From IMG/VR virus record IMGVR_UViG_3300032213_002454, positions 1-64,000 of that record: a DNA stretch of 64,000 nt. One strand, written 5' to 3'. This DNA comes from a virus. Every line of letters starts with the position of its first letter. The first letter of the stretch is position 1. The notes beneath the pieces were generated by a model. That model worked only from the letters and a program-made list of their open reading frames with translations. It made no database searches and was not told the DNA's origin. The position numbers and the translations under genes were made by a program. This document shows, piece by piece, positions 34,908 through 54,609 of this stretch.

Positions 34908-35214
34908 AATAAAATATATGTGTATCTACTGCGGATTTGTAGTCTTGTAATGCACTAACTAATGGAAATGGTATACGTAAAATAGCACCATCAGGAATAT
35001 TTGATTCTAAACCACCGTATTGAGGGTTGGCGGTTAAAATTAACCAACCGAAATATGGAGTACTGTATTTTTCAAAACTAATTTTATCAAGACGGGATTT
35101 ACCAACTAAATAAAGGTATTGTTGGTCAGTAGGTCTAATTGGTAAATTTACATAAAAAACTACCGTTTGTTGCCCGTTGATTAAAAAGTCTTTATATCTA
35201 TTGTAGTAATCCAT
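34897..35214 (-). CDS. 53: Baseplate wedge protein gp53-like
   Basis: A 105-residue protein starting MDYYNRYKDFLINGQQT. The segment YLVGKSRLDKISFEKYSTPYFGWLILTANPQYGG matches the gp53 pattern of a LysM-like turn (DxIS...Y..P.Y.W.I..aNP) followed by IPDGAILRIP. T4 gp53 (196 residues) ties adjacent wedges together during baseplate completion; this version is the compact form with little beyond the LysM-like core. Its ATG overlaps the stop of the 2211-residue gene (TAATG) and its end overlaps the 2423-residue gene by 11 nt, so the three baseplate proteins are translationally linked. Confidence 0.82.
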   Translation of the reverse strand: MDYYNRYKDFLINGQQTVVFYVNLPIRPTDQQYLYLVGKSRLDKISFEKYSTPYFGWLILTANPQYGGLESNIPDGAILRIPFPLVSALQDYKSAVDTHIFYYGR

Positions 35215-38200
35215 TATGGGAAAGATTTTTTCAAATTAAATTTATTACCTCCAGAATTAACTTGTGAGTATAAGTCTTTCATATTAGAATCTGAAGGGGC
35301 TAATGGTGGTAATTTAGTTACTAACGCACAAAGTCTTTCTTTAGAAACATCATAAGGTCTATAGTTTGTATATTTGTTTGAATAATAATCGTCTCTAAAT
35401 TTTTTCAAATTTGCATCTTGAGTATTTTTGGAAGTCAAATAATCAGCACCTAAACCTGTTTGTGGTGTTGTAATTATATTTGTGAAATAGGTGTCCCAAG
35501 CATCTTTATCGGCCTGACCCGCATTTGGTATTGCCACATTTATAATACTATTTATAAAATCTTGAGGTTTTTTCAAAATGTCGGTACCGAAAAGTATGAA
35601 GAATCTATTTTTAGCCGGGGTGTAATTTGGGATATAAGTGTCAAAAGAAAATGAATCATTGTACTCATAACTGCCCGATGGAATTACATTAAAAGTACTT
35701 AATTGTTGTATAAAATCGTTAATGTCATTTTTCACTAAATAAGATTCTTGAGTTAATTCTTGTAAAGTATTTGTAACTCCTTGTGGATATGGTGCAGTAA
35801 TTTGAGTGGTTCCTGATATATTATAAACATAAGCGTTACCTTGTTTTGTTATGTAACCATCATTACCGTTCATAATATAATTCAATTTGTCAACAATACC
35901 TATCCATTCTAATTCTTTTGCTGTAATCGTACTATTGTTAACCTCCAATACCCCTAAAATTTGACCAGCTTTATCATCTATCAAATCTTGTATTCTTCTT
36001 TTTACTTTTCTTATTTGTATATCACTAAAATTAGAGTTATCAACTAATGCGAGTATTGGACAATCGTTGTTATCAACATCTTCTTTTGCTTTAGTTTTTA
36101 GGTTGTTAACTCTTGTTTCAATATTTATTGATTTACCATAAATTGTACACGATTGTGGACTACCTAAAGCGTTAAAACTTCCTGAAGTATATTCTCTTTC
36201 TTTTGTTAATAATTGTAATCCACCTATGAATAATTCATCATTAACTTTAGAAAGTGTTTGTTCTACAACTTCAAAGTATTCTTTACTCTTATCAACTAAA
36301 CTTTGCATTACATTCTGATATCTGATATTTCCTGTTACAATATTTGTTTGAATATCAAGTTTTTGTTCCCCCATCGTACCAATTGGAACTCCCCCGTCAT
36401 TTTGAGTACCTCTATTACTTGGGTTAGCAACAACCCCAAATCTATTTAAAGCTTCCTCTTCAATTAATTTGTCATAGGTATCAAGGGTTTCGTTTTTAGC
36501 AGTATCGTCAGCTCTATCATCGTACATTTCTGTATTGGCGTAGTAATTAAAAGATAGCGCGTTTTGTAATTTAGATACAGGACCTGCTAGACCATGTGCA
36601 CCTATAAAGTTAAAACCTATATTTACATCAGCTATCATGGGTTGCACACCTATACCTTCGGGATTTAAATCAAATTTTCCATCCTCGTATTTAAATGTAA
36701 GCGAATCGATTACAATTTTTGTGTGGAAAAAGTCTCCAATCCTTAATACACAAATAGGTGGTGAACCAAATACGCTGTTTGTCACGTCATTAAAAAGTAG
36801 TTTAACTTCACCTTTTAATGATTCGCTAACAGTAGGGATGGTATCGCCAGGTCTCATACATTGTTGTAAGAATGTTAATCTAGAATTTAAACCTTCAGGT
36901 GTGATTGAGTGAAATGCAGGATTAAAAAATTTGAATTTTTGTTTTATTCCGTTATAAATCATTTCATCAGAATCTTTAATCATGTCAAAGTAATTACACT
37001 CAGTTAATAATTTTCTACCTAATTTTTTTGTTAGTTCTTTTTTTCTTTGTGATGTTAATTGTGTTGTTCTTTCAGTTCTTGTTCTTGTTACTGTTTCGGG
37101 TGTTTGATTTTGTGGTCCTCCGCTTGGTGTCTGACTAACAAAAGTATTATTAGATTCTACCGGTTGTGGATTATTCTGATTATTAGATTCCAATTCAACA
37201 TCATCGTTTACTTCAGATGTTAAATAACTTGTATTAGTATTATTAGTTTCTTGCGATGCATTAAAATCCCCCTCTACAGAAGTACTTCCATCTCCATTTG
37301 TTCCACTATTTTCTACGTTATTTACATTAGAGTTGTCATTACCCGTATTGTTTAATGTGTTATCAACAGGGTCAAGTATTTCAACATCAACAATTCTAAC
37401 TCTTCTACACGCCATTGCGTTTACTGAGGACACACCTTCACTACTATTATTTTTAAATGATTTAGAACAATCAATATATTTGTATGGGTCTTGGTCTAAC
37501 TTACCTCCCTCACCTTGATAAGTTTGAACTTTTACTACAATACTTCCGTCTTCAGCATAATCCCCAATTTTTTTAGAACCTGCTGGTTGAGCATATAACC
37601 ACTGTCTAACACTATCCCCTCTTCTTGTTGATAGTTTTATATTATAGTCAGGATTGTGTACCGATGATGCAGTACCTGACAAACTAAATTTAACTTTTTT
37701 TCCTTGTGATAAAGCGTCCCCAATTACAACGGCCAATTTTTTTGCGTCATTAAATTCACTATCAATATAATTAAAAAACTCACTAACTTTATCTTTTCTT
37801 GCGTCTATGAATGAAGATAGATATTGAGTTTGTGCTGCGGGGCTTAAATTCTGAATTTGTGCTTGTGTAAATTGTGCATAGGTAGCGTCATTATATTTAA
37901 AAATAAAATTTCTAGCCTTAGTAAAAGTCTTACCAAATAAGTCTGTTCCTCCTGTTTCTAAATAACCTTGTTTAAGTGCTAAATAATCCTGATAAACTTC
38001 ATCAAAAGGTTTATTGGCTTGTAATGGGTCAAATACACCATTTACGGTTTTTTGTCCAGGATAATCATTATGGAAATAAAATCCAATATCTTGTAAATTA
38101 GGTTGTATAATTGTCGGAGTAAATGTAGGTGCTGGTGTCACACTAGGTGTTGGTGATGGTGTAGGTGGTGGTGTTGTAGTAGGTGTTGGTGATGGTGTTG

Positions 38201-41200
38201 GTGGTGGTGGAGTAGTTGATGGCGTTGGTGATGGTGTTGGAGTAGTTGATGGTTGATTACAAGGTTTTCCAGTTGGTGTAATTGTTCCGTCAATCGCATT
38301 TGTAAAATAAGGTACAGTATTTTTTTCAACGCAAACAGTACCAGTCGCACCACTTGATAATGGTGTTGAAGTCAGTGTTGTTTGCCCGCAACCTGTATAA
38401 TTTATAGTTGTGGCACTATTTCCTACGGCATAATCGTATTGTGAACAAGGGTCCGGTGGTAATGGTGGTATTGGTGGTGGAATTTTTGTAATAAATTCAG
38501 TTTCTGTTATTTCTCTAACTAAAACTTGAGTTTCAAAAATTTCTTGAGGTGTGAATGTTACCCATTTTTTAATTAAGTCATATATATCATACTTTGTACA
38601 TCCCGCAATAAATGAATCTATTACTTGAGTAATTGAACCTTCACCTTCTCTTTCTAATTCCCTATCAACCAAAACATTCATTACTGATGGGTGGTCAACT
38701 AAAATCTTAAAACTAATGTTTCCCTTTCTTGAAGTATTTGTGTAAGTATATATTGGCTCAGGTCTTCCTAAAAATGTATTGTCTTGCCATCCTGTTTGTA
38801 TATTTTCGTCGAATGATAAATCATAAGGAGGGAACCACATAATTCTACCCCCATTCGGTCCTTTTTCACAAGTTGGTAAATCCTCATATGTAAATCCAGG
38901 AGTATTTGATGTTCTCCAAGCCAAATTTTCTAAAGAAAACATATATTTTTTTACCTTATCTTTTCCAAAGTCTAAACTACTTGAACTTGCGTCACTATAA
39001 GGTACAATATTTAAGTTATATGTATTTGTTAATACCGAGTCAGGATATTTTCTAATGTTACCATCTGTTTTTTGTAATTCTCTATATGTGTAATAGGGTC
39101 TATCCTTTGTAAACACTCTACAATATTCATATCCAACTGGATTTTCTGATTGTTCACCAACTGAAGTTTTTGTTGAATATCTTACAACTCTTGAACCTTT
39201 AGTTAATTCTTGGTAACCATCATTAAAAATTTTAGAAACTTGATTGATTGCGTTTCCTACGTGTTCAGTTTTGTACTGAGATTTGTTACCGGCATCAACT
39301 AATTTTTGAGTTGTGTCTAATAATGAGCCAGGTGTAAAATCGTATGAACTTGAGTCGTCTTCTCTATAACTTGGTGGTGTTCCCCATTGTGTTAAATCAG
39401 CTCCTCCTCTTTGTGGTAGTTTTCCAGGTTTAGTATAGTTATCGCTGCTTGTCCATGTAAATCCTCCAAAAACTGTAGAATTTACTAATGTGGTTCCGTC
39501 TGCCGCTGCACCTGCACTATAGTAGTTTCGACTATTGATTCCAAATTTGGTTTCATCTAATTGATTTGTTTCATAAGTTTTTCCTAAGTTTGAGTAGGAT
39601 AAAACAGGACCATAAGAAGATGCATTATCATTGTACTTTGAAAGTGGTAACTCTGAAACGTCAGGTGTTACTAATTTTGTAATAGAGCTTTTATTATCGC
39701 CTATGTAAAATTTTGATTGTGGTGCAAGTAAACTAAGTCCTTTACCGTAGTCGGGTCTAAAATAGTTATATGATAATTGTTGAAATATTAAACTTCTTGT
39801 TGGTATTGATGTATAAGTCATCAATAATTCTGATGCGTTGTTATTTGCAGGTTCTTTGTAGTTAAAAATAGGACCACCTTGACCTCCTAACGCAGAAAGT
39901 GTGTTTTGTAAAAAAGTGTTTTGATTATTAATTCTTGTAGGATAATCAAATAACTCACCAATAATATATGAATATGGACTATATAGTCCGGCCAATCTAC
40001 CTGCAAAATCTACAACGTCTAATGGTGTTGGTACCCCTGCAACATCAGGTGGTGATGTAATCTTATAGTTCATAGCGATTACAGGAATGTTTCCTGTCGC
40101 CATACCTAAAACATCAAATGGGTCTAAATTTGGTTTTGCAGAAATTCCACCTGTTTGTGGGTCAATTGATGAACTAACAGCATTTACTCTACCAACTGTT
40201 TGTTGTAATAATTCTAACGCAATTCTAGATTTAAACTCCTTTTGTAAATTTTTTGCACTTATTTTAGCTAAGTTTGAATCTTGAGATAACGGTCCATCAG
40301 ACCCTGTTGGATTATTCTGCAATAAAATACTATATGGTGTATATGTTGAAGGTAGAAAAATAAACGTATTATCTGAATTGGCGTAAGGTAGTTGTAATGC
40401 TTGAATTACTTCATTGTCAAAATCAATATCAGAATATGAACCAGTTCCTGTTGAATATGTATTTGATAGATATGCCTGTGTTTCACTTTGACCGGCTTGT
40501 ATTTCTAAAGTACTACCAATAGTGTCATCGATACCATATGGACCAACATTATCTGCCGGTAATAAATCATCATTTATAACGACAGAATCACCATATGATG
40601 TAGTACTACCTAAAGCCGGTCTTGGTCCATATTTGTTATTTATATAAGTTCTATTTTCAACCGTCTGTCCTATATTTTCTAATTCACTATTTACAGTATC
40701 AGGAAAACCATATTCACCTTCATTTGATTTTGTTTGAAAATTAAGATTTATATCAGATTGTCTTCTTTCGGTTTCAGAACCGTATTGATTTATTGTAAAT
40801 AAGATTGGTCTTTGTTCTTGTGATACTCTTTCTAGACGATTAGAAACTGTGTCTTCGATTGTATAATTTCCTTGTGATAAAAATAATATTCTTAAAGTTC
40901 TATACATTTCGACCTCAAACTCACTTTGTCCATTTTCAGGTCTATATAAATTTAATTTAAATAATTGTGGTCTCTCATCTACACCTTCTAATTCTAATCC
41001 ACTTTGAATTGTATCTGTAAAGTCATATTCGCCAGTTCCAATACTAGAACTTATTCTATATTGTTGTAGGTCATTATTTATTGACCACAAAGTTGTTCCA
41101 TAAATTTCATCACCTTGCGATGTGGGAAAATATTGATTACTTGCGTATAATAATCCTTCTTGAGTATTACCAACAAACTCCAATTCATTTCCAATTGTAT

Positions 41201-41849
41201 ATGAAATAGAATATGGTGATTGTGTTCTAAATGATGAAAGTGTTAATACATCATTAATATTATAAACAGTTTGTCCAAAATCTTCACTTGCAAAAACACC
41301 CCATTTATTTAATATTTTTAAATCTATTTCTTTTTGGTTTCCTATTCTTTCCAAATAGTTGTTAAATGTATCAACAATTGTATATTCTCCTTCACCGATT
41401 GTTAAAATATTTTTGTCGTCATTAATAAAATAAACCGAACTTCCAAACCCTGCAATATTATTTTGAGGTTTGTAAACATTTTTTACTATATGATATAATT
41501 CTGAATTATCGCCAATCGTTTCTAAATCACTTAAGATGGTGTCTGTTAAGTCATATTGGCCTTCGTTTGATTTGTAGTTTAAATTTTTATTAATTTGAAC
41601 CATGTCACCGTATTCTTCACTATCTTCGGGACCATACTGATTTATTGGAAATAATATTCTTTCTTGTCTGTCTCCAATTATTTCGATTGGTGTTGAATCA
41701 ACAGGAGTTAGGTCTGTGTAAGTAAATTCACCTTGAGCGGGTTTATCGTCTGTTCCAAAAAAATTGACAACACGATATGCTGGCAGATTTCTTGCCAACA
41801 ATTTTTTTCTAAAGTTTTCTGTAGAATTGAATGAAAGTGGGCTTTCCAT
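35214..41849 (-). CDS. Giant modular baseplate protein with eight-fold repeat and OmpA-like domain (2211 aa)
   Basis: A 2211-residue protein with several modules. Residues ~37-490 hold eight ~57-residue repeats with the pattern GxYxxxDTIxxxLExIG followed by N-x-Y-x-P. Residues ~1040-1110 resemble a tail-tube-like baseplate module (MWFPPYDLSFDEN, RKGNISFKILVDHP). Residues ~1133-1200 are a Cys-flanked domain also found in two other virion proteins, followed by a Thr/Pro linker (~1196-1243). Residues ~1250-1492 look OmpA-like (FYFHNDYPGQ, then YNIKLSTRRGDSVRQWLY). Residues ~1693-1750 are another tube-like segment (VLRIGDFFHTKIVIDSLTF). It follows the tape measure gene and precedes gp53, the area of T4 genes 27-29-48-54. 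A baseplate role is inferred. A TATTTAT element lies 13 nt upstream. Confidence 0.62.
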   Translation of the reverse strand: MESPLSFNSTENFRKKLLARNLPAYRVVNFFGTDDKPAQGEFTYTDLTPVDSTPIEIIGDRQERILFPINQYGPEDSEEYGDMVQINKNLNYKSNEGQYDLTDTILSDLETIGDNSELYHIVKNVYKPQNNIAGFGSSVYFINDDKNILTIGEGEYTIVDTFNNYLERIGNQKEIDLKILNKWGVFASEDFGQTVYNINDVLTLSSFRTQSPYSISYTIGNELEFVGNTQEGLLYASNQYFPTSQGDEIYGTTLWSINNDLQQYRISSSIGTGEYDFTDTIQSGLELEGVDERPQLFKLNLYRPENGQSEFEVEMYRTLRILFLSQGNYTIEDTVSNRLERVSQEQRPILFTINQYGSETERRQSDINLNFQTKSNEGEYGFPDTVNSELENIGQTVENRTYINNKYGPRPALGSTTSYGDSVVINDDLLPADNVGPYGIDDTIGSTLEIQAGQSETQAYLSNTYSTGTGSYSDIDFDNEVIQALQLPYANSDNTFIFLPSTYTPYSILLQNNPTGSDGPLSQDSNLAKISAKNLQKEFKSRIALELLQQTVGRVNAVSSSIDPQTGGISAKPNLDPFDVLGMATGNIPVIAMNYKITSPPDVAGVPTPLDVVDFAGRLAGLYSPYSYIIGELFDYPTRINNQNTFLQNTLSALGGQGGPIFNYKEPANNNASELLMTYTSIPTRSLIFQQLSYNYFRPDYGKGLSLLAPQSKFYIGDNKSSITKLVTPDVSELPLSKYNDNASSYGPVLSYSNLGKTYETNQLDETKFGINSRNYYSAGAAADGTTLVNSTVFGGFTWTSSDNYTKPGKLPQRGGADLTQWGTPPSYREDDSSSYDFTPGSLLDTTQKLVDAGNKSQYKTEHVGNAINQVSKIFNDGYQELTKGSRVVRYSTKTSVGEQSENPVGYEYCRVFTKDRPYYTYRELQKTDGNIRKYPDSVLTNTYNLNIVPYSDASSSSLDFGKDKVKKYMFSLENLAWRTSNTPGFTYEDLPTCEKGPNGGRIMWFPPYDLSFDENIQTGWQDNTFLGRPEPIYTYTNTSRKGNISFKILVDHPSVMNVLVDRELEREGEGSITQVIDSFIAGCTKYDIYDLIKKWVTFTPQEIFETQVLVREITETEFITKIPPPIPPLPPDPCSQYDYAVGNSATTINYTGCGQTTLTSTPLSSGATGTVCVEKNTVPYFTNAIDGTITPTGKPCNQPSTTPTPSPTPSTTPPPPTPSPTPTTTPPPTPSPTPSVTPAPTFTPTIIQPNLQDIGFYFHNDYPGQKTVNGVFDPLQANKPFDEVYQDYLALKQGYLETGGTDLFGKTFTKARNFIFKYNDATYAQFTQAQIQNLSPAAQTQYLSSFIDARKDKVSEFFNYIDSEFNDAKKLAVVIGDALSQGKKVKFSLSGTASSVHNPDYNIKLSTRRGDSVRQWLYAQPAGSKKIGDYAEDGSIVVKVQTYQGEGGKLDQDPYKYIDCSKSFKNNSSEGVSSVNAMACRRVRIVDVEILDPVDNTLNNTGNDNSNVNNVENSGTNGDGSTSVEGDFNASQETNNTNTSYLTSEVNDDVELESNNQNNPQPVESNNTFVSQTPSGGPQNQTPETVTRTRTERTTQLTSQRKKELTKKLGRKLLTECNYFDMIKDSDEMIYNGIKQKFKFFNPAFHSITPEGLNSRLTFLQQCMRPGDTIPTVSESLKGEVKLLFNDVTNSVFGSPPICVLRIGDFFHTKIVIDSLTFKYEDGKFDLNPEGIGVQPMIADVNIGFNFIGAHGLAGPVSKLQNALSFNYYANTEMYDDRADDTAKNETLDTYDKLIEEEALNRFGVVANPSNRGTQNDGGVPIGTMGEQKLDIQTNIVTGNIRYQNVMQSLVDKSKEYFEVVEQTLSKVNDELFIGGLQLLTKEREYTSGSFNALGSPQSCTIYGKSINIETRVNNLKTKAKEDVDNNDCPILALVDNSNFSDIQIRKVKRRIQDLIDDKAGQILGVLEVNNSTITAKELEWIGIVDKLNYIMNGNDGYITKQGNAYVYNISGTTQITAPYPQGVTNTLQELTQESYLVKNDINDFIQQLSTFNVIPSGSYEYNDSFSFDTYIPNYTPAKNRFFILFGTDILKKPQDFINSIINVAIPNAGQADKDAWDTYFTNIITTPQTGLGADYLTSKNTQDANLKKFRDDYYSNKYTNYRPYDVSKERLCALVTKLPPLAPSDSNMKDLYSQVNSGGNKFNLKKSFP
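38120..38260. repeat. Short tandem repeats encoding Thr/Pro-rich linker
   Basis: GGTGTTGGTGATGGTGT-type units encode a Thr/Pro/Ser linker on the minus strand between the shared Cys-flanked domain and the OmpA-like domain of the 2211-residue protein. Confidence 0.75.
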
Positions 41850-43770: not shown

Positions 43771-43890
43771 TTATTTTTTTGATTCATCTATTAGTTTGTT
43801 TATGTAATATTTTCTTTCGAATGTTGGCATATTTACACAATCATTGTACGTAAAATTGCAATATTTACATAAATAATAAATTTCATCCAT
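43771..43890 (-). CDS. 39-residue Cys-containing protein between gp26-like and tape measure genes
   Basis: A short frame starting ATG at 43888-43890: MDEIYYLCKYCNFTYNDCVN, then MPTFERKYYINKLIDESKK. It carries C-x2-C-x6-C and a C-terminal M-P-x-x-E-R-x-Y-Y motif. From memory, short proteins ending in a similar MPxxER-Y motif occur beside tail chaperone genes in other contractile-tailed phages. It begins 10 nt after the gp26-like stop. Its reading frame stays open upstream through the end of the gp26-like gene in the +1 frame, so a frameshift fusion product is possible. Position between chaperone and tape measure matches lambda G/T-type organisation. Confidence 0.6.
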   Translation of the reverse strand: MDEIYYLCKYCNFTYNDCVNMPTFERKYYINKLIDESKK

Positions 43891-43900
43891 CAAGATTTTT

Positions 43901-44659
43901 TTATACTGTGAAGAAAGGACGAAAAAACTCCACCCCAAAAGTAACTTCAAAAGTCACCTTTTCTCCTGATGGGGCGTTAACTGTTCTTTTTAAATCAATT
44001 GTTGGTTCACAATCTTTTATGAATTTTCTTATTTCTTTAGAGTCCATGATTGGTAATTGATTGACTATTGTTGATATTTCACCTCTGTTATTATTACCAT
44101 CTATTTCTATTATGTGTTTTTCTAGTGTTTTGGTAATCACAGGAGCAACCATCCCTATTGGGTAATCACTTTTTATTTTTTCAATCTCTAAACTTTCACC
44201 TATGGATAATAATTTTAGTAAAACTTTCTTTTTTGTTTTAGGTAATATTAATTCAAAATATCCATCAGAATTTGGTAAATGTTTTGGTTCATTATATGAT
44301 ATATTTTCTAATAATATTGTTACTTCAAAGGGTTTTCCGTTAGCAGGGTCTTTTAATTCAAAATTATATTCAGGTCCAAAAGAAGTGTTCCTTAGAAAAA
44401 TTAATATAACTTTCGCGTCTACATCTAAAAGTTGGTTTACGTCAAATCCTGGTTCGTATATTTTTTTTTTCAATAAAGAATTTATTATACCGTCATTCAT
44501 TATTGCGGTAGACATTAACATATTTTCGTCATTTGCAGTTAGATAACCAACTTTTAAAGATTCTTTTTTTGGTTTATAAAAAATACCTTTAGATGGTAAG
44601 TTTACAACATCATGTGGTAAATTAAAATCCATTTGTCCATAAATTTGTGATTGCTCCAT
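43901..44659 (-). CDS. 26: Baseplate hub/tail chaperone gp26-like
   Basis: A 252-residue protein with the T4 gp26-type baseplate pattern: VVNLPSKGIFYKPKKESLKV (about 18-37), then YLTANDENMLMSTA, GIINSLLKKKI, and a segment with LRNTSFGPEYNFELKDPANG. T4 gp26 acts in hub assembly and is thought to correspond to the tail assembly chaperones of other phages; it is 208 residues. It has no Cys-rich zinc site of its own, but the adjacent 39-residue gene supplies a CxxC. Located between tail tube and tape measure genes, as expected for a tail assembly chaperone. The upstream leader contains a CTATTTTTA sequence, one mismatch from the late element. Confidence 0.8.
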   Translation of the reverse strand: MEQSQIYGQMDFNLPHDVVNLPSKGIFYKPKKESLKVGYLTANDENMLMSTAIMNDGIINSLLKKKIYEPGFDVNQLLDVDAKVILIFLRNTSFGPEYNFELKDPANGKPFEVTILLENISYNEPKHLPNSDGYFELILPKTKKKVLLKLLSIGESLEIEKIKSDYPIGMVAPVITKTLEKHIIEIDGNNNRGEISTIVNQLPIMDSKEIRKFIKDCEPTIDLKRTVNAPSGEKVTFEVTFGVEFFRPFFTV

Positions 44660-44752: not shown

Positions 44753-45241
44753 TTAGTATACTAAAATACATCTGTCAGGTCTTAATGTTGCTTTTACTGT
44801 GATAAGTCCATCTTCACTATAACCTAACGAGTCAAAATCAACACTTGTTAAAAATACCCCTTGTAATATCCATTTTTCAACCGCCACACCTGTTGGGTCT
44901 AACATTTCTAAATCAATATCTTTTTTGTATCCTGCAGCATAACCCATACGTCCTGTAACTGACTCAGCGTGTAAACGAACCCACTCCATTAACGCTTGTG
45001 ATGCTGATGGTCCAATAGGGTCACGGAACGTAACATCAATCGTACCCCAAGTAAATCTACCTGCAACATATGTTGATGTGTTTAAAAATGGAATTTCCAC
45101 TTCTTTGATTTCAACTTTTGGTCTTGACGTGGATTCAACATACCAAGAGTTAATCCCCAAAGAAGAAGGGAAAGTAATGATAAACCTATTTTTTCTTTTA
45201 GGTTCATACTGAAAGGGCATTTTCATTAATAAATCAGCCAT
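44753..45241 (-). CDS. 19: Tail tube protein gp19-like
   Basis: A 162-residue protein, essentially the length of T4 gp19 (163). The opening MPFQYEPKRKNRFIITFPSS and the later FTWGTIDVTFRDPIGPSAS and ALMEWVRLHAESVTGRMGYA are typical of the gp19 tube family, which forms stacked hexamers through which DNA passes. The C-terminus VKATLRPDRCILVY completes the beta barrel. It is followed by an intrinsic terminator and preceded by a TATTTATA element 31 nt from the ATG, as expected for a highly expressed, separately regulated structural gene. Confidence 0.93.
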   Translation of the reverse strand: MADLLMKMPFQYEPKRKNRFIITFPSSLGINSWYVESTSRPKVEIKEVEIPFLNTSTYVAGRFTWGTIDVTFRDPIGPSASQALMEWVRLHAESVTGRMGYAAGYKKDIDLEMLDPTGVAVEKWILQGVFLTSVDFDSLGYSEDGLITVKATLRPDRCILVY

Positions 45242-46386: not shown

Positions 46387-49300
46387 TTATAGGTCATCAA
46401 ATGAAGCCCCTGCCGGTGTAATTACAAATTCGATGTCAATATATTCTAACGCTCTTGTAGGTTTTATAAATATTTTACCTGTTAAAGTGTTAGAGTCTAA
46501 GTCTTCAGGTGTGTTAGATACTTGAACTCTAAAGTCAATAAGACCACGGTCTCTTCTAATTTGGTCTAATATTGGGTTTACTGAATCCAAGAAATCTTGT
46601 CTAACTTTAGCATCGTTTTGTTCAAACAATAATCTAACCGCCACAGCCGAAATTAACTTACGTGCTTGTAATAATAGTCTTCTAACATTAATTCTATCTA
46701 GTGCAGATTCTCTTACTTGTAAAGTTTTATTACCCCATATTACTGTACCAACATCATTAAAAGTGGCGATTGGGTTAATTCTTCCTTTATATAATGTATC
46801 TCTATCATCTTGAGTAAGATTTCTTCTTGCTCTAATTGCGTTTACCAAACCTCTTGTGTAACCAGCTGATGCGAACCATGGGAATGCAATATTATCAGTT
46901 AATGCGAAGTTTCTAACTACCTCTGATGTTGCTGGTATGTAAAGTTGTGTGTTTGATACACTATCTAATGTTAAAATCCAAGGATAATAAGTAGCCGTGT
47001 AGTTTGAATCAATTCCTGTTTGTTCCAAATTATCTACCGCCTCAGTTGGGAATATTAATCCTTCAGAAATATCATCATAAGATGGTAAAAATAAGTTAAA
47101 GTCTGGTGTTGTACAAACATAAAGTGAATCAGCTCTATCTATTTGTACCATTTCTATTGCATCTTCAACTAAATTTGAATTGTTTACATAATCAATACCC
47201 GGTGTTGCAAATACATTTATATTAGTTCTTTCAGGGTTAGCAAATGTATCTTGACCCCATCGATATGCGTAGTAGTCAGTATTTGCCCAATTTTCTTGAT
47301 TAGGTCCTGAAATGGATTTGAAAGCTCCCCACCCTGTTGCTGTTGGGTAAGTAACCGAACTTGCGGCACCATTTATAAAACCAGTTTGACCAAGTGCAAA
47401 CGTATCTCCGTTTGTTCTATATTCTCTATAAATGTCCCATCCATCAAAACCACCATAAGGTAAAACTGTGAACTTTCTTGTATTTAGTTTATAGTATGGA
47501 TTTGTAATATCAGTAGGTTCTGAGTCAAATGAACCAACTCCTACATAAAATGCACTTTCTCCTGACGTTACGTAGGCTGATGATATAGTAACAATAGTCG
47601 CTCCGCTATCTAAGTGGAAACCTTTTGTTTTATATCCCCACTCATCACCTGTTGTTGCTGTCGCCAAATTATTAGGAATTTGTTTTCCTTTATATTGGAA
47701 AAAGTCATAATCAAATCCAATTCCATTACTTATTCCTAAATAAGCTAAACGTGGATTTTCACCCGAAGATATTACTTGATTATTTCCTCCACTCGTGTTA
47801 CCAAACGGTGGGTCATAAACAACTTCACCAGGTGTAAAATATTTAGTTTTGTAAGGGACAAATGGTGGAGTAGCGTTAGCGTATTCTCTTGAAATATATC
47901 CTTCAAAACCACAAGGTAGTGAGTCTATTGGGGCGTCGTTGTTCATTTCTAACATAACATATTTAGACCTAACTTGATACTCACCATTAGATGTACCAAT
48001 CTTTTTAGCTATAAAACTATTTTGACTTGGGTTCATAGAACAACCACGGAAACTTTCTAAAACAACAACATTAGAGTCTGTATCGTAGAAATCACGAACT
48101 AATACGTCAAACGTTAAGTTATTGAATGAGATATTTGCGATTGATAGTTTTACCAACGTGTTAGCCGCGTTACCATCAGATATTAAAACAAATCTAAATA
48201 GGTTAAATACTCTACTACCACGTAATTCAGAGACTAAATAAGGGGTTTTAGGTGTTTGATATTGTTCCAAGTAGAAGGCAATACTATCTGAATAGTTCAA
48301 GTTATTAGAGTCTGTAACTCCAGGTAATTCAACTAAATCACAATATAGTCCTCTAATTTTTCCTTCGTTATATCCATAATTAAGTAGTGAACTATAGGTT
48401 TCTTCCACAAAAATTGGAACATCTGTTCTACTTTTTCCAAAATTACTTCCTCCAAAAACTTTTCTTAAAAAGTTTGGACTTAGACTGTTCATCGACGTTT
48501 CAAACGAGAAGTTTGTATTTTGATAAGTTGTTCCTGTAATAAGGAAAGTCGCTTTAGGATTTTTAGTAACTCCCGAATAATTACCTGAGCAAACCATTGT
48601 AACACCTGTAGTTGCTGAAACTTGAAATAAAGGTCCGTGTTGAGTAGAACTAAATGTTGAAATACCTCTTGACCTCAAAGTCGCAACAACAACTTCATCA
48701 TATTCACTGTATGGTGAACCTGAATAATTTGTGGTATAAACTGCAACAGTACCTGAGTAAACACCTGAAGCTGGTGTTGATGAAATACCTGACATTGCAA
48801 CCCCAAAACCAACACCATAGTAACTGTTGTTTGGTGGATTATGAGTATAGTTAAATAATGCATAGTACCAAGGGTCGTTTGTTGTTTGTGCGGATAACGA
48901 ACTTGCAGTTGCTCCTGTTAAATTACCAACACCAAATGTTTCTGAGTATAATGTAATTGTTCCTGTACCGTTTGTACTAACACCTGATACTGAATTGAAA
49001 GTAGAAGAACTTACACTACCCCAAAATAGAGCGGTATTTCCAGATGTTGCGGCTGAAGTTGCGAATGAACTAATTCTGTTTGTAACATAAGTTTGTAAGT
49101 CTTGATTTACTGAGGAAGTTCCACCATCAAATTGTGTGTACGTATTGTAGAAACTACCATTTACGTTAATTGCACCTGGTATAGCGGAAGTGAAAGTAAC
49201 AGTACCTCCAGTTGTTCCTGTAAATGTTATACCCAAAGGACCTGTTGTGCCTGTTGCCCTCATCGTTGATGGGTTAGGGTTTGCTATTGTAGTAATAGAC

Positions 49301-49620
49301 CAAGATGGTCCCGCATCATAACCAGATAATCCAAGTACTCTTGTTACAAATAATTGATTTGATTGTGTTAAATATGATTTAGCGATATAACCTAATTCAT
49401 ATTTTGGAATTTGTGTGTTTACAAATTTTTCAGGACTAGTACCTCCAAAATAAGTGGTAAACTCATCAAAATTTGTTATGAAAATTGGTTCAAATGCAGG
49501 ACCACGAAGTGTCTCTCCCGCTAAACCTAATGTAGTAACCCCAACACTTTGAGCTACAAATGTTAAATCTCTTTCTGAAGTATAAACTCCTGGCGAAACG
49601 AATATTTTATTAGATGCCAT
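46387..49620 (-). CDS. 18: Tail sheath protein gp18-like
   Basis: A 1077-residue protein. The N-terminus (MASNKIFVSPGVYTSERDLT, then GLAGETLRGPAFEPIFITNF) is the hallmark of phage sheath proteins, and the C-terminus (NKTLQVRESALDRINVRRLL, then QARKLISAVAVRLLFEQND and DRGLIDFRVQVSNTPEDLD) carries the conserved sheath core that contracts on DNA ejection. T4 gp18 is 659 residues; the extra ~400 residues lie mainly in the first half, in Thr/Ser/Gly-rich segments (about 110-370) probably forming added surface domains. It heads a late unit: a TATTTATA element is 32 nt upstream, bracketed by a perfect 12-bp inverted repeat, opposite a divergent ribbon-helix-helix-like gene. Confidence 0.95.
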   Translation of the reverse strand: MASNKIFVSPGVYTSERDLTFVAQSVGVTTLGLAGETLRGPAFEPIFITNFDEFTTYFGGTSPEKFVNTQIPKYELGYIAKSYLTQSNQLFVTRVLGLSGYDAGPSWSITTIANPNPSTMRATGTTGPLGITFTGTTGGTVTFTSAIPGAINVNGSFYNTYTQFDGGTSSVNQDLQTYVTNRISSFATSAATSGNTALFWGSVSSSTFNSVSGVSTNGTGTITLYSETFGVGNLTGATASSLSAQTTNDPWYYALFNYTHNPPNNSYYGVGFGVAMSGISSTPASGVYSGTVAVYTTNYSGSPYSEYDEVVVATLRSRGISTFSSTQHGPLFQVSATTGVTMVCSGNYSGVTKNPKATFLITGTTYQNTNFSFETSMNSLSPNFLRKVFGGSNFGKSRTDVPIFVEETYSSLLNYGYNEGKIRGLYCDLVELPGVTDSNNLNYSDSIAFYLEQYQTPKTPYLVSELRGSRVFNLFRFVLISDGNAANTLVKLSIANISFNNLTFDVLVRDFYDTDSNVVVLESFRGCSMNPSQNSFIAKKIGTSNGEYQVRSKYVMLEMNNDAPIDSLPCGFEGYISREYANATPPFVPYKTKYFTPGEVVYDPPFGNTSGGNNQVISSGENPRLAYLGISNGIGFDYDFFQYKGKQIPNNLATATTGDEWGYKTKGFHLDSGATIVTISSAYVTSGESAFYVGVGSFDSEPTDITNPYYKLNTRKFTVLPYGGFDGWDIYREYRTNGDTFALGQTGFINGAASSVTYPTATGWGAFKSISGPNQENWANTDYYAYRWGQDTFANPERTNINVFATPGIDYVNNSNLVEDAIEMVQIDRADSLYVCTTPDFNLFLPSYDDISEGLIFPTEAVDNLEQTGIDSNYTATYYPWILTLDSVSNTQLYIPATSEVVRNFALTDNIAFPWFASAGYTRGLVNAIRARRNLTQDDRDTLYKGRINPIATFNDVGTVIWGNKTLQVRESALDRINVRRLLLQARKLISAVAVRLLFEQNDAKVRQDFLDSVNPILDQIRRDRGLIDFRVQVSNTPEDLDSNTLTGKIFIKPTRALEYIDIEFVITPAGASFDDL

Positions 49621-51714: not shown

Positions 51715-54609
51715 ATGGAAGATTTTGTGCCCAAAACACCCGAATCAAAAGCCCTTTTAATATTAGATGATTACAAAGGGTCAAATAACTATATCCTTAA
51801 TTTAAAACACAAAAAAGAGAATAGTAAGTCTTTTGTACCTACAAGACCACAGTCGGATTATATCAATAATTATAACACAACACAACCAAAAGTTGCAAAA
51901 AAATGGGTCAAATTAGATTCATATTTTGGTAAAAAACTTATGGAAGATAAGATGTATACCAAAGAACCGTCAGAAATTTATGTTGAAAAGTTGTTGGTTG
52001 AAAAGGATAAGGCTTATCATATTTGGGGTAAAATCTTTTCAGGTGAAACTTTACACGACTTTTGGATGCCAAAATCAGCATTACTAAAAGATAATGAAGT
52101 TAAAAATATTTCAATTGATTATAGTAAGTATGACGTTAGACCACCAATGGAACATCAAAAGGTAGCTATTGAAAAATTGGTTGGTAATAAAAAGTTTATT
52201 TTGGCGGATGATATGGGTTTGGGTAAGTTTTTACCGGTCAATACGCCTGTTTATACACCTAAAGGTACTAAAAAAATTGGTGATATAAAAATTGGTGATA
52301 AGGTTATTGGTAGTGATGGTAAATCCCATAATGTAATAGGTGTATTTCCACAAGGGTTTAAGGAAACATATAAAATTACATTTAATGACGGGTTTTCAAT
52401 TTTATCAGGAGATGAACATTTATGGTCTGTTTCATCCCCTAATTACGGTAAAAATAGAAAAAACGAAAGATTAAAAAAATCTTTAGTTTTATCAACAAAA
52501 CAAATGTATGAGGGAGGTAAAATTAAAGTTAAAGGCATTAACCATAATAAAAATAAGGAATATGAAATTGAAACTTATTATAAATCACCAAACGGAAATA
52601 ATAAATGGCAAATCCCAATAGTGAAACCAATACAATTTGAACGAAATGATAATCTTATGATTGACCCTTATTTGTTAGGACTTACATTAGGTGATGGTGG
52701 TATAACACAAAAAAATATTAATTTTACAACAAAAGACGATGAAATTGTGGGTTATATTGAAACCGCATTACCAAAAAATTCACAAATAGTTAAACAAAAA
52801 AATTCAAGATACAGTTATAGAATAACTAAAATCGATGGTTACACAAATGAAGTTATACAAATTTTAAAAAATTTAAACTTGATGGGATGTGGGTCAGACA
52901 CTAAATTTATTCCCGACATATACAAGTTTTCATCAGTTGAAAATAGATTATCAATTTTACAAGGGTTAATGGATACTGACGGGCATTGTATGTATAATGG
53001 TAATAGTTTTATTGGGACTGATTATTGTACAACATCAAAACAACTTTGTAATGATGTTGTTGAAGTAGTACAAACATTAGGAGGAGTTGCAAGAGTCAAA
53101 ACTTGTATCCCAACATATACTTATAAGGGTGAAAAAAAGAAAGGTAAGTTAGCTTATAGAGTTAATATTAAATTACCAAAGGGTATGAATCCGTTCAGAT
53201 TAAAACGAAAGGCTAACAAATACATTGAACCAAAAAAATACCCCACCGGAAGATATATTAAAAATATTGAAAAAGTTGGTTTTGAAGAAAGTGTTTGTAT
53301 ATCGGTTGATGCTCCTGATAAACTATATGTTACAGAACATTGTATTGTAACACATAACACCACTTCTACAATTATCGCTTCTTTAGAAACAGGTGCAAAA
53401 AAAATATTAATAATTTGTCCCGCATCTTTAAAAATAAATTGGCAAAGAGAGATTGCAAATTATTCAGATAGGTCTGTTTATATCGCAGAAGGTAAGAAAT
53501 TTTCAGATAAACATGATTTTGTTATTGTGAACTACGACATTCTAAAAAATTTCCATGACGCCAAAGAAAAAGATAAATCAGAAATAATGAAAATTGATTT
53601 TGATTTAGTAATCATGGATGAAGCTCATGTAATTGCTAATCCAAAAGCTTTAAGAACAAAAATCGCTAACGATATTGCAAGTAAATCAAATAGGGTTTGG
53701 TTATTGTCGGGAACACCAATGACATCAAGACCAATGAATTATTATAACTTATTAAATATCGTTGGAAGTCCTGTTGCCGCAAATTGGATGGCATATGCTA
53801 AAAGATATTGTAATGGATTTCAATTTAGTGTTGGAAAAAGAAAGGTGTGGAACGTTACAGGAGCATCTAATCTCGATGAATTAAGAGAAAGAACCTCAAC
53901 ACACATTCTAAGAAGATTAAAAGAAGAGGTTTTAGATTTACCTGAAAAAATTATCACACCTGTTTATTTGAGATTAAAATCAAAAGACTACGAAGAATTA
54001 ATGGGTGAATATTTTGATTGGTATGACAAAAATCCTGAAGAGTCATCGTCACTTACAATTCAGTTTGGTAAACTAATGAAAGTAAGAAAAGTAATCGCAC
54101 AAGAAAAAATTAATAACACAATCGAGTTAGCAGAGAACATTATAGAACAAGGTAAAAAGGTTATTATATTTACAAACTTTACCGACACATTAAATCAAAT
54201 CTATAACCACTTTGGTAAATCTGCAGTTTATTTAGATGGTAGTTGTTCTAAGTTTCATAGGCAAAATTCGGTTGATGAATTTCAAACAAACGATAAAATC
54301 AAAGTATTTGTTGGAAACTTAAAGGCTGCTGGTGTTGGTATTACTTTAACATCGGCGGAAGCGGTAATCATGAATGATTTATCTTTTGTTCCTGCTGAAC
54401 ATTCACAAGCAGAAGACAGGTCACACCGTATTGGACAAAAAAATTCAACATCAGTTTATTACCCTCTTTTTGAAAACACAATTGAAGGTGCAATTTACGA
54501 CATATTAAATAGAAAAAAGAAAATTATCTCAACAGTAATGGGTGACGATATGTTTGATGACGCATCCACAATAGAAGAAATGTTAAACATGATTTCTGTC
54601 AACCGATGA
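51715..54609 (+). CDS. Snf2-family helicase (SMARCAL1-like) interrupted by an intein
   Basis: A 964-residue precursor; removal of the 377-residue intein (172-548) leaves a 587-residue Snf2 ATPase. Extein motifs: Walker A split as GLGK (168-171) and TT (549-550), DEAH 635-638, SGTP 665-668, and motif VI QAEDRSHRIGQ 898-908, a sequence typical of the HARP/SMARCAL1 and related Snf2 proteins that anneal or remodel forked DNA. T4 UvsW is a different SF2 branch, so this may be a functional counterpart in fork reversal and recombination (inference). The gene is plus strand, divergent from the neck candidate. The first ~150 residues contain HKKENSKSFVPTRPQSDYIN and a lysine-rich region with no recognised domain. 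Confidence 0.9.
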   Translation: MEDFVPKTPESKALLILDDYKGSNNYILNLKHKKENSKSFVPTRPQSDYINNYNTTQPKVAKKWVKLDSYFGKKLMEDKMYTKEPSEIYVEKLLVEKDKAYHIWGKIFSGETLHDFWMPKSALLKDNEVKNISIDYSKYDVRPPMEHQKVAIEKLVGNKKFILADDMGLGKFLPVNTPVYTPKGTKKIGDIKIGDKVIGSDGKSHNVIGVFPQGFKETYKITFNDGFSILSGDEHLWSVSSPNYGKNRKNERLKKSLVLSTKQMYEGGKIKVKGINHNKNKEYEIETYYKSPNGNNKWQIPIVKPIQFERNDNLMIDPYLLGLTLGDGGITQKNINFTTKDDEIVGYIETALPKNSQIVKQKNSRYSYRITKIDGYTNEVIQILKNLNLMGCGSDTKFIPDIYKFSSVENRLSILQGLMDTDGHCMYNGNSFIGTDYCTTSKQLCNDVVEVVQTLGGVARVKTCIPTYTYKGEKKKGKLAYRVNIKLPKGMNPFRLKRKANKYIEPKKYPTGRYIKNIEKVGFEESVCISVDAPDKLYVTEHCIVTHNTTSTIIASLETGAKKILIICPASLKINWQREIANYSDRSVYIAEGKKFSDKHDFVIVNYDILKNFHDAKEKDKSEIMKIDFDLVIMDEAHVIANPKALRTKIANDIASKSNRVWLLSGTPMTSRPMNYYNLLNIVGSPVAANWMAYAKRYCNGFQFSVGKRKVWNVTGASNLDELRERTSTHILRRLKEEVLDLPEKIITPVYLRLKSKDYEELMGEYFDWYDKNPEESSSLTIQFGKLMKVRKVIAQEKINNTIELAENIIEQGKKVIIFTNFTDTLNQIYNHFGKSAVYLDGSCSKFHRQNSVDEFQTNDKIKVFVGNLKAAGVGITLTSAEAVIMNDLSFVPAEHSQAEDRSHRIGQKNSTSVYYPLFENTIEGAIYDILNRKKKIISTVMGDDMFDDASTIEEMLNMISVNR
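52228..53358 (+). other. Class 3 intein with LAGLIDADG homing endonuclease
   Basis: Insert of 377 residues (172-548 of the precursor) between GLGK and TTST in the Walker A loop. It begins FLPVNTPVYTP rather than CLP, so residue 1 is Phe. Splicing-block residues: block B GDEHLW (H235, W237), block F SVCISVD (C528), block G IVTHN (T546, H547, N548), with Thr549 as the +1 residue. W237-C528-T546 form the W/C/T triad of class 3 inteins, which do not use a position-1 nucleophile. The central domain has two LAGLIDADG motifs, LLGLTLGDGG (about 320-329, D327) and LQGLMDTDG (415-423, D422), so the homing endonuclease looks intact. Confidence 0.9.

Follow-up and report, generated by a model that had tools for sequence, protein, structure and literature searches.

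Does the gp26-like tail chaperone gene at this locus encode one product or two, and if two, how is the second one reached? The window, the whole 64,000-nt stretch of DNA analyzed here, belongs to an IMG/VR virus record of 66 kb and has a GC content of 32%. A sequence-only reading had noted a 39-codon frame that starts 10 nt past the stop of the gp26-like gene and stays open upstream in the +1 frame, and a GAG TTT TTT CGT stretch just before the end of that gene. Both were confirmed on the minus strand (ATG frame at 43890..43771; GAG TTT TTT CGT at 43930-43919). Our comparison of this junction with its relatives indicates that an additional, longer version of a protein that helps to build the tail is very probably made by a one-base reading slip near the end of the gene.

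Table 1 Features of the tail chaperone locus and its surroundings in the window
Feature	Coordinates	Strand	Basis or detail
gp26-like tail assembly chaperone, short form, 252 aa	43901..44659	-	PF12322 T4_baseplate, phrog_150
Slip site TTT TTT CGT	43919..43927	-	T6 43927-43922; rare Arg codon 43921-43919; TTTTTTCG in 79/79
Conserved RNA stem-loop 5' of the slip site	43931..43976	-	Window fold, covariation, synonymous resampling
+1-frame extension, 49 aa + stop, predicted C-terminal domain of the long form	43771..43920	-	Contains the 39-codon frame 43890-43771
Tail tube protein (gp19-like), upstream in operon	44753..45241	-	phrog_4542 E 7.1e-29; Pfam gp19 E 8.4e-4 (below its cut-off)
Tail sheath protein	46387..49620	-	phrog_23 E 7.6e-53; Phage_sheath_1C over cut-off
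Next gene, presumed tape measure, 618 aa	41889..43745	-	Position only

The short form matched PF12322 T4_baseplate with an E-value of 3.6e-8 (33.8 bits, over the cut-off of 24.5) and phrog_150, labeled 'baseplate hub', with an E-value of 1.1e-13. A gene of the G/GT type has its place between the tail tube and tape measure genes, and the tube gene was found on the upstream side. The 618-aa next gene had no significant family match in Pfam or PHROGs. In the Flavobacterium phage immuto, the gene at the corresponding place is annotated as tail tape measure, and only 36 residues of the two proteins were aligned by BLASTP (E 0.002). One of eight clade neighbors matched the 'tail protein' family phrog_788 (E 1.7e-4). 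Among solved structures, there was no sequence match at E-values up to 1 and no Foldseek match at E-values up to 0.001; the predicted structure of the window protein alone had a pLDDT of 84. A terminator-like stem of 10 pairs with a T-rich tail (44731-44708, minus strand) lies between the tube and gp26-like genes.

The gp26-like reading frame ends ...GGG GTG GAG TTT TTT CGT CCT TTC TTC ACA GTA TAA, with the stop at 43903-43901. In the +1 frame the nearest upstream stop is at 43956-43954, and the frame is open from there through TGG AGT TTT to its own stop at 43773-43771. On its own, one open frame in an AT-rich window is weak evidence. We collected 18 loci from a first search and the best 80 of at least 572 confirmed candidates from a second. 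Merging duplicates and dropping L016-L018, whose contigs end inside the gene, left 79 distinct sequences (the window and 78 relatives). All 79 carry TTTTTTCGN in frame with the same frame relation and a +1 frame open across the 0-frame stop, none being out of register or closed, a pattern that comparison places far beyond chance. This was the check on the T run and frame relation that the sequence-only reading had proposed. The site lies 18-24 nt from the 0-frame stop in the 79 sequences, and CCTTTCTTY follows TTTTTTCGN with few exceptions. The extension was encoded in the +1 frame in 79/79, never as a separate gene (T4) or in the -1 frame (cyanophage type). A search for relatives of the locus in prokaryotic genome contigs pattern-matched 96 stretches, of which none was confirmed.

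A complete +1 frame, encoding a conserved segment of 47-61 residues after the shift, is present in 74 of the 79 sequences; four of the remaining five are cut by contig ends and one (L051) continues into the next gene. The L051 extension is interrupted after LDEIYYLVK, its frame continuing into that gene, which reflects a deletion or a misassembly. The 53 aligned extensions have the rough consensus FF(V/A/G)LSSxYKKxLLDEIYYLxKYxNFSYSDxxxMPTFERKYFIDKLIEE, and the predicted fusion of the window has 246 + 49 = 295 aa (P0001). The extension is under purifying selection, with a dN/dS of 0.24 in the +1 frame versus 1.11 and 1.25 in the other two frames. Together with the constant frame relation, this value supports the earlier proposal of a programmed fusion between the T4-type tail chaperone and a +1-frame extension.

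If the 39-codon frame were instead a separate gene, its own start would be the ATG at 43890. The A-rich stretch before this ATG resembles that before other genes of the window, and annotators of related phages made the frame a gene. However, neither ATG, GTG nor TTG occurs between the site and the DE(I/F)Y motif in 46 of the 79 sequences (ATG in 24, TTG or GTG only in 9), and a separate 39-residue gene was rejected family-wide on this ground. The Met before DE looks like a replacement of Leu (L in 58, M in 19, Y in 2 of the 79), the L-S-S read in the +1 frame across the overlap is kept, and the homologous domain is fused in frame in T4 gp51. We consider a separate gene very improbable. The 39-residue frame is, as judged by these comparisons, the C-terminal part of a fusion and the T4-type counterpart of lambda gpG/gpGT. 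The description of this frame as a Cys protein in its own right thus fell away: its cysteines are not conserved among the 53 aligned sequences and are incidental to a fusion part. A zinc-binding Cys motif was rejected for the same lack of conservation. Several phages have small 'hypothetical proteins' annotated behind their gp26-like genes, and these are probably fusion tails as well. In named phages, second domains annotated as small genes of their own, likewise probably the ends of fusions, lie at L100 4854-4964, L104 3734-3853, L106 2591-2704 and L107 2510-2683.

The stops of one relative confine the shift to 20 nt: in L081, 2 nt separate the end of a +1-frame TAG from T6, and the stop of the 0 frame lies 18 nt after the T6 start. 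Within this interval, good re-pairing is offered only by TTT TTT C. Across the 79 sequences all six T are invariant, including the third base of the first Phe codon, and T6 is always followed by CGNCC. One sequence has CGTCCA, and in this one (L062, the only one with CCA) the corresponding +1-frame residue is His. The Arg codon at the site is CGN in 79/79 (CGG 39, CGT 26, CGC 14), versus 42 of 519 Arg codons in the same genes (CGG 3, CGC 0), where the other 477 are AGR. CGA, which would place Asp in the fusion, was never seen at the site. In the 32 window ORFs of at least 150 aa, CGG and CGC are used at 0.3 and 0.25 per thousand codons, and in-frame TTT TTT CGN occurs once in 19,918 codons, at the slip site. 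The +1 frame encodes L-S-S in the CCT TTC TTC that follows, which accounts for its conservation. In 51 lineages (sequences with <90% protein identity), scanning codon by codon found unusual synonymous conservation at GCC, GGA and GGG upstream and at CCT in the site.

The GCC and GGG codons are partners in the outer stem of an RNA stem-loop. On the minus strand of the window, the outer stem pairs 43976-43970 with 43937-43931, a bulge of TCAGGAGAA occupies 43969-43961, and the inner stem pairs 43960-43951 with 43947-43938. The window fold has a free energy of -19.1 kcal/mol (z -2.7), and single folds of six sequences gave z-scores of -1.2 to -3.7. RNAalifold found the outer stem unprompted; it pairs RCCCCG with YGGGGY, with the second stem inside. 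We specified both stems on an alignment of 46 sequences, in which L007 stands for L006 and from which L040, L053, L067, L071 and L097 were left out by hand. In this alignment 86.0% of cells were paired versus 79.9% in shuffles (sd 0.7), with 52 double-changed cells versus 22.6 and a covariation of 0.254 versus 0.167, and none of 500 shuffles reached the observed pairing, double-changed cells or covariation. Sliding the partner by 1-3 columns lowered the pairing to 38-59%. Pairs changed on both sides numbered 5 versus 4.1 in shuffles of the 46 sequences, which is not unusual, and the shuffle controls do not remove relatedness. The outer stem alone did no better than shuffles (98.9 versus 98.7% paired) and is uninformative because it hardly varies. 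Among 15 sequences of <85% identity, pairing was 84.6% versus 77.4% shuffled, a value reached in 0/1000 shuffles.

Synonymous-codon resampling gave a mean z-score of -2.57 for the stem-loop region, with all 51 lineages below -1 and 39 below -2, whereas twelve control windows in the same gene ranged from +0.14 to -0.91. The end of the stem is 2 nt from T6 in 35 of the 51 lineages, 3 nt in 5, 4 nt in 10 and 0 nt in one; in the window it is 3 nt. A conserved, base-paired hairpin thus lies just 5' of the +1 site, as established by comparison of the relatives. No downstream structure was seen in the window clade, where the mean z-score by simple shuffling was -0.50 over the 51 lineages (window +0.91, L022 +0.27). 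Pairing of GGAGAA with TTCTTC was also considered and set aside, as the L-S-S coding in the +1 frame explains TTCTTC. The invariant GGGG might act as a Shine-Dalgarno stimulator as in prfB, but it is paired in the stem-loop, and its distance to the P-site codon is 8 nt rather than 3.

We extended the comparison to named phages, using both the gp26-like protein and the second domain as queries. Reading at the junction places the domain in the +1 frame for the immuto phages, Mel-JY01, GXN1, SP-15, LIS04 and LR756508, and in the -1 frame for S-H38 and S-CREM1; LR756511 falls clearly into neither group, its second frame beginning at an ATG that overlaps the stop region. Exact duplicates and cut (L140, L205, L281, L282) or partial (L171, L172) loci were set aside before counting. 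Cyanophage-type sequences have the domain in the -1 frame in 48/48 distinct sequences, at T TTT TTN (heptamer read by eye). Sequences of the immuto and LR756508 types have it in the +1 frame in 72/74 distinct sequences, the exceptions being L273 and L278 with -1; the immuto (Flavobacterium-phage) sample comprised the best 80 of at least 599 confirmed candidates. Most immuto-type sequences have a -1 frame that closes shortly before the stop. L273 and L278 are neighbors of the immuto-type clade, and the direction seems to have switched in them. The viral sequence search returned one partial locus related to GXN1 (L284).

RNA structure also differs between these clades. Upstream of the site, the mean z-score of the window clade compares with -0.9 in the immuto type and +0.2 in the cyanophage type. 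The upstream hairpin is weak or absent in the immuto type (16/43 below -1), so it is not needed for use of the +1 frame in general. Downstream, by simple shuffles, the mean was -0.19 to -0.66 in the immuto type and -2.5 at +9 in the cyanophage type, where 17/24 were below -1. L273, which has no site by pattern, was left out of this clade comparison. Single folds of the cyanophage type contained a stable downstream hairpin in 4/6 (z about -5; the other two, L164 and L112, gave -1.59 and +0.37), yet RNAalifold found no common downstream structure in 26 sequences, so these hairpins differ by subgroup. In L120, L131, L149 and L167 they lie about +10 to +45 after the T run with z near -5, and their sequences differ between subgroups. 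By these measures, the side of the RNA structure changes with the direction of the shift in the window and cyanophage-type clades.

PF12322 matches were obtained for T4 gp26 (E 8.8e-64) and gp51 (E 3.9e-52), the latter ending at residue 201 of 249. By hhalign, the cyanophage-type domain matched both the gp51 family (P 4.7e-7) and the window clade (P 1.9e-7), and the immuto type matched the window clade (P 4.4e-13). The window-clade extension profile compared directly with T4 gp51 was not significant (hhalign P 0.11; best gp51 E 0.48 in hmmsearch). A merged profile found the gp51 end in 11/11 T4-type loci with E-values of 6e-8 to 0.014, the best decoy having 0.44. For the short forms, the window-clade profile matched the cyanophage type weakly (P 0.0014) and did not match gp51 (P 0.11). 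Profile comparison thus identifies the end of T4 gp51 as homologous to the +1-frame domain via the cyanophage-type domain; that gp51 ends in the shared domain confirms published work. In the structure predicted for a gp51 relative (from 8 sequences; mean pLDDT 80), this end consists of three helices joined by a low-confidence linker. In one T4-type locus (L181) the gp51 reading frame is broken, and the C-terminal domain was met in a fragment in another frame. This protein family has three routes to a homologous C-terminal domain: a +1 frame, a -1 frame or a second, fused gene (T4 gp51).

How would the long form be made? We infer a +1 shift by the ribosome, stimulated by the hairpin, and a role of the products as chaperones of the tape measure protein. 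Most translation would end at the TAA at 43903 and give the short form (TAC-N, like lambda gpG), while a fraction of ribosomes would slip one base forward at TTT TTT CGT. With the rare Arg codon CGN waiting in the A site, the P-site peptidyl-tRNA-Phe would move from UUU to UUC, and 49 more codons would be read in the +1 frame. The resulting long form (TAC-NC, like gpGT) would end in the helical domain also present at the C terminus of T4 gp51. The stem-loop before the T run may refold behind the ribosome, pull the mRNA out on the exit side and favor forward movement. Two products of a T4-type tail assembly chaperone, the long one arising by a +1 ribosomal slip with hairpin help, are probable from this evidence. 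We propose only tentatively, and with clearly less confidence, that an mRNA hairpin, by refolding just behind the ribosome, drives a natural programmed +1 ribosomal frameshift at this site. If this is true, it would mirror the usual -1 design, since the -1 lineages tend to have a hairpin downstream and the +1 lineage has one upstream.

Ribosomal +1 slippage fits the data best, hairpin-assisted transcriptional slippage is its main rival, and a -2 slip fits the wider family poorly. The sequence-only reading had likened the geometry to that of Mu. The likeness in frame holds, as the second ORF of Mu-type -2 frameshifts is also in the +1 frame, and the window clade itself fits +1 and -2 alike. In a -2 slip, tRNA-Phe would move back two bases within T6; T1-T5 permit re-pairing on UUU. 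This accounts for the invariance of base three in the first Phe codon, a base that a +1 slip at the second Phe codon does not need and that counts against it. LIS04, with TTT TTT AGT, offers poor +1 re-pairing and favors -2. However, -2 re-pairing requires five T and is impossible at the homologous +1-frame sites TTC TTT TGG, TTT CTA TGG, TTT CTT TGG, TTC TTT CGT and AAC TTT CTA, which include GXN1 (TTC TTT CGT), LR756508 (AAC TTT CTA) and many immuto-type sites, whereas +1 works at all five (P-site UUU to UUC or UUU). The likely step is therefore +1, not the -2 of Mu. An upstream hairpin has also been reported to attenuate backward shifting (PMC3639245). We regard a -2 slip as improbable. The two steps predict different tryptic junction peptides, ending in VEFFVLSSQYK for +1 and VEFFFVLSSQYK for -2, that is, two Phe (VEFFVLSS) or three, one extra.

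In stem-loop-assisted transcriptional slippage, the polymerase would drop one U of T6 and normal translation of the shortened mRNA would give the fusion. The stem end within 0-4 nt of T6 in the 51 lineages would suit this process, which explains the invariant T6 as well as or better than a ribosomal +1 slip. A precedent covered in a 2016 review (PMC5009743) is a Roseiflexus insertion sequence (IS630), in which a stem-loop adjoins T5C5 and transcripts lack one C. It resembles the window in a stem-loop just 5' of a run starting with T, one base being lost in Roseiflexus, but it has T5C5 where the window has T6 CG. The run here is only six bases, short of the 10-nt T5C5 and of a whole hybrid length, and the +1 frame is still used at sites of other clades without such a run (TTTCTTTGG, TTTCTATGG, TTCTTTTGG, TTCTTTCGT). 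Transcriptional slippage is thus unlikely, though a serious rival. The hairpin and T6 could also form a partial intrinsic terminator or attenuator that lowers the next gene, with the fusion arising from a bare slip site. This reading is compatible with fusion. In its favor, six T begin 0-4 nt after the stem, and the presumed tape measure gene lies downstream; but it leaves the CG after the T run unexplained, and a 9-nt bulge is unusual for terminators. The loop limit of 8 in our terminator scan excludes the hairpin, so its absence from the scan list is no test. We consider such a terminator doubtful.

Ribosomal +1 slippage with an upstream hairpin has partial precedents. According to the 2016 review (PMC5009743), +1 shifting leans more on a slow A-site codon than -1 shifting, a 5' stem-loop of T4 gene 60 is believed to exert a pull on the mRNA in the same sense, and the working of the single reported upstream hairpin was 'still mysterious'. 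In yeast, as reported in PMC3639245, an upstream hairpin stimulated +1 shifting at CUUCGGC and attenuated -1, with a 5'-directed pull as one model. That SARS-CoV-derived hairpin, like the putative stimulator here, lay a few nucleotides 5' of the site with CGG in the A site; it was a synthetic +1 test, whereas the window has a natural, conserved arrangement. The HSTV-2 myovirus, in the review's account (PMC5009743), very likely uses +1 for a tail assembly product, as proposed here. The shift of lambda gpG/gpGT is -1 while the window frame is +1.

T4-like tail assembly chaperones, with separate genes or polyT -1 slippage, have already been published. Vladimirov et al. reportedly named genes 26 and 51 in 2022 and found frameshifting to be kept in several T4-like groups. 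The PRFect paper (PMC10885494) describes T4-like phages with a short and a fused long gene, citing Vladimirov, Gautam and Davidson 2022. The Adele paper (PMC12846349) cites Vladimirov et al. 2022 for polyT as -1 signals in TAC-N genes of T4-like phages. The 2016 review calls the G-T frameshift widely conserved except in T4 (PMC5009743). The window shares with the T4-like chaperones (gp26/gp51) the PF12322 N-terminal domain, a short and a long form with a homologous C-terminal domain, and a place downstream of the sheath and tube genes. It differs in that T4 has two genes and the T4-like slippage described in those sources is -1, whereas the window has +1, TTT TTT CGN and a hairpin upstream. 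The combination of a +1 site with a conserved, covarying stem-loop 0-4 nt before the T run looks new; no +1 site with an upstream hairpin was found for phage tail chaperones in the PMC literature, a search outside which most subscription papers fall and which leaves absence unproven. The shift of the structure from one side to the other with direction in the two compared clades would provide a natural test of whether the direction of slippage is set by mRNA refolding at the ribosome's entry or exit side.

Elsewhere in the window, no tRNA genes were found. A 2211-residue protein with a Pro/Thr-rich stretch is encoded at 35214-41849 (minus strand) and has a weak OmpA-like match (E 0.0012, below cut-off). 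An ORF for an SNF2/DEAD-type helicase at 51715-54609 (plus strand) contains an apparent intein inside the Walker A region (GLGK ... VTHN TT), as judged by eye from the translation.
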